Below are positions 634-6,316 of a stretch of DNA of 35,063 nt, one piece after another (the stretch's first letter is position 1; each line of letters opens with the position of its first letter). The notes below the pieces were generated by a model. That model was not told where the DNA came from. It saw only the letters and a program-made list of their open reading frames with translations, and did not search any database. The DNA lies in NCBI GenBank assembly GCA_913050005.1, contig CAJXBI010000013.1, positions 1-35,063 of the forward strand, given 5' to 3'. The stretch comes from an uncultured Bacteroidota bacterium (lineage in GTDB: Bacteria; Bacteroidota; Bacteroidia; NS11-12g; UBA9320). The translations under genes and the position numbers were made by a program.

Positions 634-1554
634 CTAAATCGAAATCTGAACTTGACTTAAATCGATAAACTGCTGGACACGAGAATTAATTTCAGATTTA
701 CTTAAATTCACTAACCGTTCTGTTCCAAATTTTTCGACACAAAAACTTGCCATTGCACTCCCATAAATGACTGCTCTCTTCATATTACCAAAAGATATAT
801 CATCGGTAGAGGCCAGGTAACCAATAAAACCACCTGCAAAAGTATCTCCCGCTCCTGTTGGATCAAATACCTCTTCTAATGGTAAAGCTGGGCAGAAATA
901 AATTGACTCAGAATCGAACAATAAAGCTCCATGCTCTCCTTTTTTAATGATTAAAAAACGTGGACCCATTTCCATAATCTTTTTTGCCGCTTTAACTAGA
1001 GCATACTCACCACTAAGTTGTCTTGCCTCTTCATCATTAATTATTAAAACATCAACCATTTCAATGGTTTTAACCAATGATTCTCTGGCTATATCCATCC
1101 AAAAGTTCATTGTGTCCATTGCAATTAATTTCGGTTTATTCTCCATTCTCTCAATAACCTTACGTTGAACATCAGGCGATAAATTACCTAACATTAAATA
1201 ATCTGAATTTTGATAAAAACTTGGAATTATTGGATCAAAATGTTCAAGGACATTGAGTTCTGTAATGAGTGTATCACGGCTATTCATATCGTTGTGATAC
1301 TTCCCACTCCAAAAAAATGATTTTTCTTCTTCCTTTATTTGAAGTCCTTCAGTATCAATACCATGAGATTCCAATAATTGAATATCTTCTTTTAGAAAAT
1401 CTCCTCCAACAACCGCAACTAGATTAATAGTATCTTCAAGATAACTACTACTCAATGTAATGTATGTAGCAGCACCTCCAATTATCTTATCCGTCTTGCC
1501 AAATGGTGTCTCAATTGCATCAAATGCAACACTTCCGATTACAAGTAAACTCAT
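634..1554 (-). CDS. PfkB-family carbohydrate/nucleoside kinase
   Basis: A 306-residue ribokinase-like sugar kinase that should transfer the ATP gamma-phosphate to a sugar or nucleoside hydroxyl in the cytoplasm. Seen: the N-terminal glycine pair GGAATY (26-31) that lines the sugar site, and the C-terminal PfkB signature DPTGAGDTFAGG (231-242), whose GAGD forms the anion hole and carries the catalytic Asp (237). The length is normal for the family. The substrate cannot be read from the sequence; adenosine, ribose and fructose-type substrates are all possible. It is the first gene of a unit with recJ. The ATG at 1554 is preceded by a perfect -7 box only 4 bases away, which predicts a leaderless mRNA. 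Confidence 0.88.
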   Translation of the reverse strand: MSLLVIGSVAFDAIETPFGKTDKIIGGAATYITLSSSYLEDTINLVAVVGGDFLKEDIQLLESHGIDTEGLQIKEEEKSFFWSGKYHNDMNSRDTLITELNVLEHFDPIIPSFYQNSDYLMLGNLSPDVQRKVIERMENKPKLIAMDTMNFWMDIARESLVKTIEMVDVLIINDEEARQLSGEYALVKAAKKIMEMGPRFLIIKKGEHGALLFDSESIYFCPALPLEEVFDPTGAGDTFAGGFIGYLASTDDISFGNMKRAVIYGSAMASFCVEKFGTERLVNLSKSEINSRVQQFIDLSQVQISI

Positions 1555-1558
1555 AATG

Positions 1559-1566
1559 CAAATTTA
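1559..1566 (-). promoter_or_regulatory. Bacteroidota -7 promoter box TAAATTTG, leaderless type
   Basis: On the minus strand this reads TAAATTTG, an exact TAnnTTTG match, followed by CATT and the ATG of the kinase gene. With the usual spacing from box to transcription start, the start would fall on or next to the A of ATG. The -33 element is not clear. Confidence 0.6.
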
Positions 1567-1652
1567 GCGCTAATATTATCATAATACGATTACTAAATAT
1601 CTATTTATAGTCTAGAACTAACAATAAGATTAATTCATATTAAGGCAATGAT

Positions 1653-1660
1653 TATTTTCG
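1653..1660 (+). promoter_or_regulatory. Candidate -7 box TATTTTCG upstream of the hydratase gene
   Basis: TATTTTCG matches TAnnTTTG except for T to C at position 7, and ends 6 bases before the ATG at 1667. The same TTCG variant recurs before at least four other genes in the window. Confidence 0.4.
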
Positions 1661-1666
1661 TAGGAC

Positions 1667-2428
1667 ATGAATAAATCAAAAATTGCAAAATCGCTTGATC
1701 ATGCAGCGTTTAATGCTAAAGCTATTGACCAAATCAGTAATCAATTTGATTTTGCGGAAGATGAGGCATACGAAATTCAGAAACTAACGATCGAAGAGAG
1801 ACTAGCTCGAGGCGAAAAATTCGTTGGTTTAAAATTAGGTTTCACATCTTATGCAAAAATGGAGCAAATGGGAGTTCATGACATGATATGGGGTCGACTC
1901 ACTGATTCCATGTGGCTTAAAAATGGGGAAACACTTTTTTTGAATCAATTTATACATCCCAGAGCCGAGCCAGAAATTGCTTTTTTACTTAAAAAAGATT
2001 TGAATCATGAAATTTCGCTTGAAGAAATCCCTGAATATATCTCAGCATGTGCCCCAGCAATTGAAATTATCGATTCTCGCTTTGCAAATTTCAAATTTTC
2101 ATTAGAGGACGTTATTGCAGATAATTGCTCATCTTCAAGCTTCGTAATTGGAGCATGGCAACCTCTTCCTGAATTGTTAACCAATCGAACAGTAGTTTTA
2201 TTATTTGATAAAGAAATTAAAGAAGAAGACTCCAGTAATGCTATTTTAAATAATCCTCTGTTATCGATTTGTAATGCCTCCCGTTTGGCAGAAAAGTATA
2301 ATCAACCTTTTTTGGCTGGTAACATTCTTTTAGCTGGTGCGGCTACATCAGCGGTATTTATTGAGTCAGGTAAAAAAATTACTGCTAAAGTAAATGGTAT
2401 TGGAAGTTGCTCAATTCATGCAAAATAA
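1667..2428 (+). CDS. 2-oxo-3-hexenedioate decarboxylase / 2-hydroxypentadienoate hydratase family protein
   Basis: A 253-residue cytoplasmic enzyme of the MhpD/4-oxalocrotonate decarboxylase branch of the fumarylacetoacetate hydrolase superfamily, which act on 2-keto-4-enoates from aromatic or tryptophan catabolism. Seen: GLKLGFTS (54-61); the metal-ligand region HPRAEPEIAFLL (97-108) with its two acidic residues; and IEIIDSRF followed by DVIADN and a serine run, which is characteristic of the family. It stands alone, with no partner dehydrogenase or aldolase nearby, so the pathway cannot be deduced. Whether it decarboxylates or hydrates cannot be decided from motifs. The ATG at 1667 follows a close -7-like box. 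Confidence 0.82.
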   Translation: MNKSKIAKSLDHAAFNAKAIDQISNQFDFAEDEAYEIQKLTIEERLARGEKFVGLKLGFTSYAKMEQMGVHDMIWGRLTDSMWLKNGETLFLNQFIHPRAEPEIAFLLKKDLNHEISLEEIPEYISACAPAIEIIDSRFANFKFSLEDVIADNCSSSSFVIGAWQPLPELLTNRTVVLLFDKEIKEEDSSNAILNNPLLSICNASRLAEKYNQPFLAGNILLAGAATSAVFIESGKKITAKVNGIGSCSIHAK

Positions 2429-2463
2429 TTTATGAAAATTATTTTTCGTTTCGAGTAAAAATC

Positions 2464-2471
2464 TATTTTTG
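2464..2471 (+). promoter_or_regulatory. -7 promoter box TATTTTTG of tRNA-Asn
   Basis: Exact TAnnTTTG match, 40 bases before the tRNA 5' end. The sequence after the box (TTTTGCAAACGCTTTTA) closely resembles the one after the rpsT promoter box (TTTTGCAAACCTTTTA), hinting at a shared initial-transcribed or discriminator element for translation genes. Confidence 0.6.
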
Positions 2472-2511
2472 CAAACGCTTTTATAAACTAAAATTAGTTC
2501 TAAAGCTTATT

Positions 2512-2585
2512 GCCTTCATAGCTCAGCTGGTTAGAGCGGTTGACTGTTAATCAATAGGTCCCTGGTTCGAGTCCAGGTGAGGGCG
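2512..2585 (+). tRNA. tRNA-Asn (anticodon GTT)
   Basis: All four arms can be drawn by eye. The acceptor arm GCCTTCA pairs with TGAGGGC with one G-T pair. The D arm is GCTC/GAGC. The anticodon stem GTTGA/TCAAT carries the loop CTGTTAA with anticodon GTT. The T arm is CCTGG/CCAGG with loop TTCGAGT. The discriminator base is G, as expected for tRNA-Asn. CCA is not encoded. No variable-arm anomaly is seen. Confidence 0.97.
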
Positions 2586-2591
2586 CAACCC

Positions 2592-2625
2592 AAACCCTTT
2601 ACTAGTAATAGTTTAGGGTTTTTTT
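2592..2625 (+). terminator. Rho-independent terminator after tRNA-Asn
   Basis: AAACCCT (2592-2598) pairs with AGGGTTT (2615-2621) around a 16-base loop, and the 3' arm runs into a T tract to 2625. It starts just after the tRNA 3' end, so it ends the tRNA transcript. The 186 bases from here to the next gene hold no recognised gene, only repeat copy A. Confidence 0.75.
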
Positions 2626-2781
2626 ATTTCAACAAGTTGTGAGTTCAAATATATCATAAAATAACTCCACTGGCATATAACTGGCAGTCCTGAGGCAGTT
2701 AATTTGCCAAAAAAATCCAAACTAATTTTCTTATTCAACACCCCCGTGCCGTTTTAAAATATCGGTTTCCTTTCCATAGCC

Positions 2782-2813
2782 TTTGCTCAGAACGGTGGTA
2801 TAGCCCTATTGTT
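2782..2813 (+). repeat. Direct repeat copy A, 3' border of orphan secreted-protein gene
   Basis: This 32-base segment beginning TTTGCTCAGAACGGT matches 3451-3482 at 29 of 32 positions in the same orientation (differences at positions 16, 17 and 29). It contains the near-palindrome ATAGCCCTAT and reaches into the stop codon of the neighbouring minus-strand gene. The two copies bracket that gene and its promoter precisely. Confidence 0.85.
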
Positions 2814-3414
2814 ACCAAGGAAAGTCACCTTTTATAATTTCAATAGTACCGCCTTTGTCACTATCATCAGATTTTTTTAATTTAACGACTAATCCATTAT
2901 ACTTATACTCACTGTAATATGACCCATATTTTTCCTTAGTACCTATATAGGTAGCAGACCGATTAACTTGCCTTGCTATTTCTAGATAATCATTCTTGGA
3001 AGGGTAATACACATATATTTTTCTTGAAGGTTTCTCAGGCCCCCTTTCATCAACAACATAATTTTTTATATCTTGTCTAGTCCTAAATTCATACCAAGTG
3101 TAGGCAGTTTCATTTTCTTCATCATATCCTTCAGCGAAATCTGATTGTACCGAAGTAGATTTTACTAAATGTTTAAATTTACCTTCATATTTATTTGGGT
3201 AACTATTACTACTCCCAATAGCTCCATCCTTTGCTATATATGAGTAGGTGGCATATGTTCTCATATTTACTATACCATTACCTTTTGCAATGTTATTAGT
3301 TTCATATAGTTGTTGGCTAGCTAGCATATTTGTAAGCTCAATGAAAGAAAATTGTTGCGAATAACAGGTTGCAAAAATGAATGATAATAAGATGGTTAGG
3401 TATTTTCTTTTCAT
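2812..3414 (-). CDS. Orphan secreted protein of unknown function
   Basis: A 200-residue protein that I do not recognise. It has a clean Sec signal peptide (basic KRK, then a hydrophobic stretch, then SQQ) and a mature part rich in Tyr, Lys, Ser and charged residues with no cysteine pairs, repeats or known catalytic motif, so it is probably periplasmic or exported. The ATG at 3414 is chosen because an exact TAnnTTTG box ends 12 bases upstream; a TTG five codons earlier lies inside that box and cannot be the start. The gene is bracketed by the two copies of a 32-base direct repeat and sits beside tRNA-Asn, so it looks like an acquired cargo gene. Confidence 0.7.
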   Translation of the reverse strand: MKRKYLTILLSFIFATCYSQQFSFIELTNMLASQQLYETNNIAKGNGIVNMRTYATYSYIAKDGAIGSSNSYPNKYEGKFKHLVKSTSVQSDFAEGYDEENETAYTWYEFRTRQDIKNYVVDERGPEKPSRKIYVYYPSKNDYLEIARQVNRSATYIGTKEKYGSYYSEYKYNGLVVKLKKSDDSDKGGTIEIIKGDFPW

Positions 3415-3426
3415 AATTATATACCT

Positions 3427-3434
3427 CAAATATA
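3427..3434 (-). promoter_or_regulatory. -7 box TATATTTG of orphan secreted-protein gene
   Basis: On the minus strand this reads TATATTTG, an exact match to TAnnTTTG, 12 bases before the ATG at 3414. It fixes the translation start, because the in-frame TTG upstream overlaps the box. It lies inside the repeat-bracketed segment, so the cargo carries its own promoter. Confidence 0.6.
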
Positions 3435-3450
3435 TGAAACCTATCGAGCG

Positions 3451-3482
3451 TTTGCTCAGAACGGTTATATAGCCCTATGGTT
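3451..3482 (+). repeat. Direct repeat copy B, 5' border of orphan secreted-protein gene
   Basis: Same orientation as copy A, 29 of 32 bases identical. It lies 17 bases beyond the -7 box of the secreted-protein gene, so the unit from copy A to copy B is one gene with its promoter, about 0.67 kb from repeat to repeat. Confidence 0.85.
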
Positions 3483-3490
3483 TGGGGTTG

Positions 3491-3530
3491 GTGGGGTTAA
3501 TTAAAGGTATACTCATACCCTAAACCCTAC
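3491..3530. other. Hairpin-forming imperfect palindrome
   Basis: GTGGGGTT (3491-3498) can pair with AACCCTAC (3523-3530) through one G-T pair, and inside it GGTAT pairs with ATACC around a 4-base loop. It lacks a T tract, so it is not an ordinary terminator. It ends on the stop codon of the HNH remnant and begins 8 bases after repeat copy B. Confidence 0.45.
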
Positions 3531-3758
3531 CCAATAGAATCAGATTTACTTCTATTACAAGGTTGACAAAGGAGTTGAATGTTTCTATACGTATTTGCTC
3601 CTCCTTCACTAAATGGTATTATGTGGTCAAACTCTAAGTTTTCATTACTTCCACACATTACACATTTGTGAGCATTATTTATTATTCTGGGGCTTAACTA
3701 CATAACTTTGCTTATCCTCAATTAAAATATTTCCTTTGTAAACTCGTTCAAACACCAC
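3527..3758 (-). pseudogene. HNH endonuclease remnant, frameshifted
   Basis: The minus strand encodes a recognisable HNH/McrA-type nuclease C-terminus: a first zinc pair HKCVMCG, then LEFDHIIPFSEGG with the catalytic DH, then NIQLLC and CNRSK, ending at a TAG at 3527-3529. This frame is open only from 3697. Upstream coding-like sequence continues in another frame (VYKGNILIEDKQ, then YVVKP). Removing one base from the GGGG run at 3689-3692 joins the two as VVKPRIINNAHKCVMCG, which is what a true HNH protein would read. The 5' part is lost or merges into the start of the next gene. No complete nuclease could be made from this copy. Confidence 0.72.
3703..3710 (+). promoter_or_regulatory. Candidate -7 box TAACTTTG upstream of the lipoprotein gene
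   Basis: Exact TAnnTTTG match 48 bases before the ATG at 3759. It lies inside the HNH remnant. Confidence 0.4.
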
Positions 3759-5183
3759 ATGCAATCTTTGCTTAAATATTCGCTTTTTATTTTTGGATTG
3801 TATACAACAATCTCCTCCTGCAAAAAAGACGAATTAAATACCAATACAAATAGTCAGATTACAATTAACAGGGACACACTATGGTTTGATACTGTTTTCA
3901 CCAAAGTAAATTCAAATGTCCCAAAATCTGTTAATAAGCAAATTCTTGTTCACAACCCGTATGACCAAAGCATTAAAACTTCAATTCGATTAGGTGGTGG
4001 GGGTAATTCTCATTTTAGACTAAATGTAGACGGTGAAGCCGGGATTTCATTTTCAGATATTGAGCTATACCCAAATGACAGCATCTTCCTTTTTGTAGAA
4101 GTTAATCCTGATCCAAATAATAATAGTCCAGACTTTAATCCATTAGTCATCCGTGATTCTATTCTATTTAATACAAACGGTAATGAATCTAAAACAATGC
4201 TAATTGGTTGGGGACAGGACGCTCATTATATTTTTAGAGATAGTATTGAAAGAGATACCACCTGGTCAAATAATAAGCTCCCAATTGTCGTTTATGGATA
4301 TTGTTATATAAAGCCTGGCGTTAATCTAACCATAGAGGAAGGAATGAATATCCATTTCGCACCCAGAAGTTGGCTATTTGTAGAGGGTAAAATAAATATC
4401 AAGGGTAAAGTAGATAATCCAGTGATAATGCAAGGAGATCGTTTACAGCCATCATGGGAAGAAGAAAGTGGACAGTGGGGTGGAATTTGGATAAGTCACC
4501 CTAGCTATGATAATACGATTGAACACGCTCTAATTAAAAACGGTACAGTAGGAGTATACTGTGATTCTTTACCTGGTGTTGAGAGTGAAAGAAATGTAAC
4601 CATAAATAAAACTATGATTAGAAACATGAGTTTTGACGGTATTAGTGGAAAAGGAAGTACAATTCACATTCAAAATAGTATAAGTATAAACTGCGGAAGA
4701 TTCACATTTTTGGCTGCCAACGGAGGGAACTACACTCTATTACATAATACATTTTATACTGGTCGAAGAGACTTCTCAAGATTGGAACCAACATTTGCCT
4801 ATTTGAATAGAAGAAGAGATGAATTTGGTTCAATTTTAGAGACTTACGACATTCAATTTTATTTTGTAAATAACATTATTGATGGTGTTTTGTCAGATAC
4901 TGAAATTGGTGAAGATATTGACTATTCTAGAGTAATAATGCCATCTATTGTAGATTACAATTTGATTAAAACTAATAAAGCAATCTACGCTGGAAGTGGT
5001 TCTAGCAATATTATTAACGCATCCGCTAAATTTAAAGATCCCAATAATTTTAATTTTGATTTGGACACGCTTTCTGCAGCCAAAAATATGGCGTTTCCTT
5101 TAAATCCCTCTGTAGATGAAGATTTTTTAAATAGAGTTAGAATAGGAACTGCAGATTTAGGTGCCTATGAGAGTCAGTTCTAG
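3759..5183 (+). CDS. Surface or periplasmic lipoprotein with beta-helix-like region
   Basis: A 474-residue lipoprotein with a signal peptide ending in the lipobox ISSC; Cys21 would be acylated. The first half carries immunoglobulin/transthyretin-like beta segments. From about residue 180 the repeating hydrophobic pattern (VNLTIEEGMNIHF, LFVEGKINIKG, then GQWGGIWI) is that of right-handed parallel beta-helix proteins of the pectate-lyase-like class. No catalytic residues can be assigned, so binding or adhesion is as likely as an enzyme role. Its stop overlaps the convergent glycosyltransferase stop in a shared CTAG. The ATG is the first in frame after the HNH remnant. Confidence 0.75.
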   Translation: MQSLLKYSLFIFGLYTTISSCKKDELNTNTNSQITINRDTLWFDTVFTKVNSNVPKSVNKQILVHNPYDQSIKTSIRLGGGGNSHFRLNVDGEAGISFSDIELYPNDSIFLFVEVNPDPNNNSPDFNPLVIRDSILFNTNGNESKTMLIGWGQDAHYIFRDSIERDTTWSNNKLPIVVYGYCYIKPGVNLTIEEGMNIHFAPRSWLFVEGKINIKGKVDNPVIMQGDRLQPSWEEESGQWGGIWISHPSYDNTIEHALIKNGTVGVYCDSLPGVESERNVTINKTMIRNMSFDGISGKGSTIHIQNSISINCGRFTFLAANGGNYTLLHNTFYTGRRDFSRLEPTFAYLNRRRDEFGSILETYDIQFYFVNNIIDGVLSDTEIGEDIDYSRVIMPSIVDYNLIKTNKAIYAGSGSSNIINASAKFKDPNNFNFDLDTLSAAKNMAFPLNPSVDEDFLNRVRIGTADLGAYESQF

Positions 5184-6316
5184 CCAAACCCTGAAACGTT
5201 AAACAGGTTATCAATAAAACTTTCCCAAGTATACTTATTTCGTTCTGATTTTATGTTTTCTGAAAATTCAGAATTTCTATTATTCTCATAAAAATCAAAA
5301 ATACAATCCGATATCTCCTTTTTGTCTTGGGAAGTTACATAACCCACTTTTTGATGAGGGACAAGCTCGGATAGTCCACCAACATCCGTAACAAGCATTG
5401 GTCTATTATAAAAGTATGCGATTTGAGTTACCCCACTTTGTGTTGCTGTTTTGTAAGTTTGAGCTACCATGTCTGCAGCACTAAAATAAAGACTAACCTC
5501 AGAATCTTCTATGTAATGATTTGCTAAAATGACGTAATCTTTTAGACCAAGATCATCAATTATTTTTAGATAGATTTGAGGAGTATCATAATATTCTCCG
5601 GCAATAACCAATTTCAAATTTTTATCTCTGAGTCTATGGTCAGAAAAAGCTTCCAGAAGTGTATCTAATCCCTTATATTTACGAATAAAACCGAAAAACA
5701 AAACATAATTAGTTTTTGTATCTAATCCTAACTTTTCTTTGGCCTTAACTTTATCTATTTGCTTCCCAAAATTTTCATACATGGGGTGCGGATTAAAAAT
5801 GGTAGGTATAGATATGTTAAATAACTTAAGATCGTTGAGAACAGACTTGCTCATGGTCAAAAAAGCATCGCACGATTTTAGAAAATAAGCAGTAAGTATA
5901 CGATCGCCAAATCTTTTTTCGTGTGGGACAATATTATCTGTAATAGCAACTATCTTAGAATGTTTATTCCTTCTTATCATTCTTGCAAGGGTTCCTAAAG
6001 ACGGTCCCATGAATGGCATCCAAAATCTAAAAATCACTAAGTCAGGTTGTTCATTTTTTATCTTTCTTCCAAGAAGAATCCAATTCAGTGGGTTTATCGA
6101 ATTCAAACTTACCTCTATATTTAAATTTTCTGGCGGTAAAGCATTGGATATCTGAGATTTACCTGGAAATAAAAATTTGGGGTATTGAAGACTAAAAGTG
6201 ACTATTTTTACTTGATGACCCTGCTTTTGTAGTTTTGAAGCAAGTAGTTCATTAAAAGATGATAACCCACCCCTTAATGGATAAGCTGGACCAATTATGG
6301 TGATTTGCTTACTCAA
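5180..6316 (-). CDS. GT4-type (group 1) glycosyltransferase
   Basis: A 378-residue GT-B glycosyltransferase, last gene of the BatA operon. Seen: the N-terminal donor-domain loop GPAYPLRGGLSSF (9-21) and a C-terminal nucleotide-sugar domain with VLFFGFIRKYKGLDTLLEAF, then KLVIAG, then a segment with ATQSGVTQIA and TDVGGLSELV. The usual EX7E motif is not present in canonical form; the ATQSGVTQIA stretch stands in its place. The start is TTG at 6316, overlapping the end of the GT2 gene by 8 bases; no ATG fits, and the protein would begin MSKQITIIGP. The acceptor is unknown, probably a surface glycan or glycolipid. Confidence 0.85.
   Translation of the reverse strand: MSKQITIIGPAYPLRGGLSSFNELLASKLQKQGHQVKIVTFSLQYPKFLFPGKSQISNALPPENLNIEVSLNSINPLNWILLGRKIKNEQPDLVIFRFWMPFMGPSLGTLARMIRRNKHSKIVAITDNIVPHEKRFGDRILTAYFLKSCDAFLTMSKSVLNDLKLFNISIPTIFNPHPMYENFGKQIDKVKAKEKLGLDTKTNYVLFFGFIRKYKGLDTLLEAFSDHRLRDKNLKLVIAGEYYDTPQIYLKIIDDLGLKDYVILANHYIEDSEVSLYFSAADMVAQTYKTATQSGVTQIAYFYNRPMLVTDVGGLSELVPHQKVGYVTSQDKKEISDCIFDFYENNRNSEFSENIKSERNKYTWESFIDNLFNVSGFG

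Follow-up and report, generated by a model that had tools for sequence, protein, structure and literature searches.

The locus considered here raises the question of how a single gene for a secreted protein came to lie between two copies of a short direct repeat, next to a tRNA-Asn gene. In the window, i.e. the whole stretch of 35,063 nucleotides analysed, copy A of the repeat occupies 2778-2813 and copy B occupies 3447-3482 on the same strand, with 32 of 36 nucleotides identical and the starts 669 bp apart. The best ungapped 36-nt direct match within 1500-5500 scores 32, compared with 24.8 on average and 28 at most over 60 dinucleotide shuffles, and the 32-nt repeat pattern occurs in 2 places in the window against 0 in 100 shuffles. 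In the whole genome to which the window belongs, just two copies were found by a pattern search allowing up to 3 mismatches. The initial annotation gave 29 identical bases out of 32 at a spacing of 669 bp, with exactly one enclosed gene and one repeat copy entering its stop codon. Realignment returned the same figures; the one gene between the copies is the ORF at 2812-3414 on the minus strand, and its stop codon lies at 2814-2812 and thus overlaps copy A by two bases. The gene had also been credited with its own -7 box, and it does appear to have one: a candidate box of the Bacteroidetes type, TATATTTG (3434-3427, minus strand), was recognised by reading as a match to TAnnTTTG, 12 nt ahead of the ATG at 3414.

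The enclosed gene encodes a 200-aa protein with a signal peptide and no known family. No match was found in Pfam, PHROG, NCBIfam, PADLOC or PDB, nor among phages or plasmids, and a single-sequence structure prediction reached a mean pLDDT of 50.5, which is too low for use. The order was searched for homologues in 107 genomes besides the one at hand, and none has one, so that the protein is so far restricted to its own genome.

The surroundings of the gene are conserved. On the left, a gene of the FAA_hydrolase family (1667-2428, plus strand; Pfam PF01557) adjoins the tRNA-Asn gene also in relatives. The tRNA-Asn(GTT) gene itself was located by ARAGORN at 2512-2586 on the plus strand, and it is the sole credible match of an Rfam search. 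On the right, a lipoprotein gene (3759-5183, plus strand) is shared by 18 of the 19 genomes of the genus. The distance from the FAA_hydrolase gene to the lipoprotein gene is about 1330 bp in the window, and the same gap is 268-350 bp in four relatives (G010, G017, G006 and G009), where the tRNA-Asn gene and a terminator are all that can be recognised inside it. These four sites are empty, and so is one allele of G008, the closest relative, which seems to mix an empty and an occupied allele: one of its contigs follows the window sequence to 2588 and then continues directly from 3661 onward. From this junction and the shorter interval in relatives, the extra DNA in the window is 2587 to about 3660 (approximately 1.1 kb). 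The native flank resumes at 3661-3758 (plus strand), which corresponds to the downstream side of tRNA-Asn in G008 and G010. Comparing the interval between tRNA-Asn and the lipoprotein gene, as the initial annotation had proposed, revealed empty and occupied forms of the site. Its view that the gene was acquired and not vertically inherited is borne out by the insertion missing from relatives and by the absence of the gene from the other 107 genomes.

At the occupied tRNA-Asn sites (G008, G002 and G011), the right side carries an integrase gene or its N-terminus, the motif pair GGCAGTGCTTAGACAGT and a copy of tRNA-Asn. A second type of insertion was also seen downstream of tRNA-Asn, at L118 and L123 (G015 C204 and G011 C12) and at L166:6012-6368; there, the frame after the tRNA end reads by eye like the C-terminus of a serine recombinase, with no match in Pfam.

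The inserted DNA of the window begins with a segment (2587-2705, plus strand) which is the left end of an integrative element. Its sequence over 2587-2699 aligns with the left ends of a tRNA-Met element in G011 and a tRNA-Asn element in G012. This shared alignment takes in a terminator palindrome (2587-2625 in the window, of which the palindrome search marked 2587-2620) and CTGGCAGT.CTGAGGCAGT; the paired GGCAGT motifs at 2682-2699 within the left end are likely to be arm sites of the integrase. The G011 element is intact, with a length of 7 kb. From tRNA-Met it runs through the left end and the cargo genes to a 353-aa integrase, followed by the motif pair GGCAGTGCTTAGACAGT and a tRNA copy of 69 bp (98.6%). 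Tyrosine integrases are present in the sister elements of G002, G009 and G011, and none is encoded in the window. The initial annotation had stated that the mobilising enzyme is not in the window, and relatives are where it was found. Also, a 44-residue piece of an integrase of the tRNA-Asn/Met type exists on another contig of the genome to which the window belongs. This C-terminal remnant (L170:5522-5683, contig C38) is situated between two lipoprotein genes and adjoins sequence resembling the left block of the repeat module described below. Viral contigs were searched for the integrase as well, and none was found there.

At the other end of the insertion, an HNH endonuclease gene is preserved as a 3' remnant (3527-3697, minus strand), of which 3530-3697 matches Pfam HNH with the C-terminal domain alone (1.4e-15). 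The N-terminal part is missing, and the gene is cut at the junction with the native flank. A stable hairpin at about 3491-3528 (fold z of -2.9 for 3400-3540) is probably the terminator of this gene. The tRNA gene, the stemmed palindrome and the broken HNH nuclease named in the initial annotation are thus all real, as confirmed by ARAGORN, by palindrome search and folding, and by Pfam, respectively.

We account for these features by considering 2587 to about 3660 as what decay has left of a small integrative element, namely its left end; the element would have entered at tRNA-Asn by tyrosine-integrase recombination. To this reading we assign a probability of about 0.78. In relatives, such elements consist, in this order, of the tRNA as the left att side, the left end, the cargo, the integrase, the paired GGCAGT motifs, a partial or complete tRNA copy and the native flank. 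The action of an integrase at the window site is suggested by the sister elements, i.e. by sequence comparison. A later deletion would have taken away the integrase together with the right att side and would have truncated the HNH gene at its front, leaving the left end, a full repeat module, the secreted cargo gene, the repeat core and the 3' end of the HNH gene. Against this reading, the tRNA-Asn 3' end is not duplicated in the window, where such a copy would mark the right att site, so that the deletion is inferred; in its favour, the HNH gene is cut where the native flank resumes, which fits a deletion through the right end.

The repeat itself is part of a larger family, and here the initial annotation has to be corrected: copy A is not a free-standing 32-base unit, since a longer element of the family (2706-2814) has it as its right end. 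We call this module R1. It is a non-coding module of approximately 115 nt, and the repeat noticed first is its core. The full R1 module of the window covers 109 nt at 2706-2814 on the plus strand, with copy A (2778-2813) as the core, and repeat comparison places copy B, a core alone, at 3447-3486 on the plus strand. A model built from ten copies, the window copy included, detected 27 copies in 14 of the 19 genus genomes at E <= 0.01, and a DNA query extended the range to G033 and G025, which represent two further genera of the family. The genus genomes are drafts and often place R1 close to the end of a contig, which weakens our reading. The search for the repeat outside the locus, which had been suggested together with the comparison of relatives, was therefore productive. 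The situation named as contrary to a mobile unit, with the repeat occurring nowhere else and all close relatives holding the same gene in the same place, was found in neither part, because the repeat occurs elsewhere and relatives lack the gene at this site. A coding role of R1 was rejected, as reading frames are not conserved between copies, and neither consensus folds of both strands nor single folds gave anything stable and shared. Among phages and viral contigs, there was no R1 match save one chance match inside a coding gene of a GC-rich phage-like contig (L175).

The position of R1 is related to tRNA genes. Of the copies that have a left block, about 17 in all, eight follow a same-strand tRNA gene at a distance of 66-201 bp, namely Asn in the window, Glu in L043, L168, L051 and L161, Met in L050b and L054, and Pro in L159. 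The chance of 8 tRNA-proximal copies out of 16 is near 2e-16 if 45 tRNA genes per 2 Mb are assumed, with the copies being partly non-independent: L050b and L054 represent a single locus seen in two closely related genomes, and one old insertion may account for the tRNA-Glu copies. Further copies adjoin the paired motifs of tRNA-Glu-type elements with no tRNA gene beside them, as expected of tandem units. In the single-cell genome G002 (AH-657-M05) of the genus, for example, tRNA-Glu is followed in turn by a left end, R1, genes for secreted proteins, a primase, a small HTH protein and an integrase. In the same genome, the secreted-gene stretch downstream of tRNA-Glu (L168:92-5013, contig C11) closes at a second sequence resembling the tRNA-Glu end, before the integrase part, an arrangement that resembles a tandem pair of elements. 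On the other hand, R1 is missing from the intact G011 element and is therefore dispensable for an element, which speaks against our reading.

Where R1 is present, it marks a border. The left flanks of R1 are alike across many loci, and the homology stops at the right edge of the module, where the cargo differs; on the right side, likeness is limited to a pair from the same locus and to two cargo families that recur. R1 thus joins a constant element end to variable cargo. Many of the R1-adjacent cargo proteins start with a signal peptide or a lipoprotein signal, as read from the translations. In 14 cases, a gene lies within 100 bp of the right edge; 8 of these genes are directed towards R1 and 6 point away. 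Copies without a left block sit between cargo genes (window B, L048, L162 and L158). Copy B has neither a left end nor att motifs beside it and thus cannot be taken just as the terminus of another element, which is a point against our reading. The pair of A and B is most simply understood as two cargo-boundary repeats inside one element. Two proteins recur beside R1. A 105-aa protein (MANNTGIKYGGRQ...) adjoins several cores in different genomes (L010, L011:886-1203, L045 and L046) and has weak matches only, to PHROG families of unknown function; and a lipoprotein family ending in PVWGTCP is cargo in different elements (L158:9938-11020, and to the right of R1 in L051 and L045).

In terms of mechanism, R1 stands at the left end of several element types in the genus with its right edge as the border to the cargo, and the cargo would be swapped there, probably through recombination that takes place rarely, within the core or beside it. 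Such an exchange at R1 is suggested by cargo families that recur while their left contexts differ (L046/L053 and L051/L158a/L045), and the core copies at junctions of unrelated cargo genes are compatible with exchange at the repeat by some route. Recombination in or near the short core would suffice for this, and so would shuffling during tandem accretion and decay, which is known for ICE-derived islands (PMC5704250).

The same observations can be read in another way, as a site-specific cassette system inside the islands, with an enzyme acting on the R1 core to insert or excise single genes together with a flanking core. Then A (left block and core) and B (core and right side) would bracket an inserted cassette as its two sites, which agrees with the one gene between two cores, its stop codon overlapping one of them, and with the cores at cargo-gene junctions and the two cargo families just mentioned. 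It also agrees with four loci (L009b, L050b, L051 and L054) in which the left block, the core and a GTTGGT right side are joined with no gene between. However, no locus was observed both with and without a unit of gene and core, movement of such a unit being seen nowhere among the loci compared, and no recombinase is regularly next to R1; the orientation of the cargo is mixed, and the core has no conserved fold. We consider this system rather unlikely. An integron is the familiar model for it, as an attC cassette shares with our locus the single gene, the repeat overlapping the stop codon and the related repeat on the other side, but an integron-type recombination is not supported: no IntI was over the cut-off (TIGR02249, 0 of 19 genomes), no attC-like fold is conserved in the repeat and the cargo has no fixed polarity. 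The 372-aa integron-like recombinases of genus mates were rejected as R1 enzymes, with no R1 near them. Two copies of such a tyrosine recombinase gene in G009 (1.24 kb each, 99% identical; L176:4016-5255 and L177:3872-5112) score 105 bits against the integron integrase model, under its cut-off. One weak R1 copy adjoins an integrase fragment in G016. It is unlikely, too, that the core serves for recombination in a system other than integrons, so far undescribed, which swaps single secreted-protein genes at the left ends of tRNA-borne islands and is common to islands with different integrases and tRNA targets.

The initial annotation had itself proposed that recombination between the repeats moved a cassette or cargo unit of one gene. 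This is not supported, because the insertion (2587 to about 3660) exceeds the repeats on both sides and starts with the left end of a tRNA-targeting element whose tyrosine integrase occurs in relatives. The evidence fits the left end of a decayed element better than a free one-gene cassette.

R1 may also be regarded as a small repeat of the MITE or REP type that spread in the lineage and is found in islands by coincidence, A and B being independent insertions. The left block and the core do occur apart (L169 and L160; L046, L011 and L012), and the intact G011 element manages without R1. We nevertheless consider this very unlikely, because the placement downstream of same-strand tRNA genes is strongly biased and the left flanks common to the loci extend well beyond R1. 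In a comparison of the flanks by eye, neither terminal inverted repeats nor a target-site duplication was evident. A chance repeat in vertically inherited DNA, for which the mere two copies in the genome might speak, is hardly credible, being contradicted by the shuffle test, the repeat family elsewhere, the empty sites and the absence of the gene from the 107 other genomes.

When compared with known systems, the decayed element is closest to integrative elements that target tRNA genes and carry a tyrosine integrase and cargo, i.e. IMEs and related islands (PMC5704250), and the tycheposons of marine Prochlorococcus and Methylophilaceae (PMC10872708, PMC11389934). The shared features are the tRNA target, the tyrosine recombinase beside one att side, the variable cargo, the empty and occupied sites among relatives and the tandem units at tRNA-Glu; the window itself shows an insertion with empty counterparts and an end homologous to that of a complete element. 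The difference is that the window holds a remnant without integrase or right att side and not a complete member, and that elements of this genus with different tRNA targets share the left-end module R1. Tycheposons are the nearest marine example in name, which the sister elements match in outline (tRNA target, tyrosine recombinase and cargo), judged by features alone. A CIME, a cis-mobilizable element, is an ICE or IME remnant that kept both att sites (PMC5704250). Like a CIME, our remnant is a decayed element at a tRNA gene with the integration genes lost and the cargo kept, but a CIME retains attL and attR, and the right side was not found in the window. With both the integrase and the right att side absent, the remnant is neither an autonomous element nor a CIME. 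In the open-access literature searched, we found no description of a module like R1 shared by elements with different tRNA targets.

For this uncultured marine Bacteroidia genus, small integrative elements are one way by which strain-specific secreted proteins reach the genome. The elements are found at genes for tRNA-Asn, tRNA-Glu, tRNA-Met and tRNA-Pro; several are decayed or arranged in tandem, and a cargo-boundary module shared across different tRNA targets is unusual. R1 provides a 40-nt handle with which marine metagenomes can be searched for cargo genes of this kind and exchange at a defined site can be tested.
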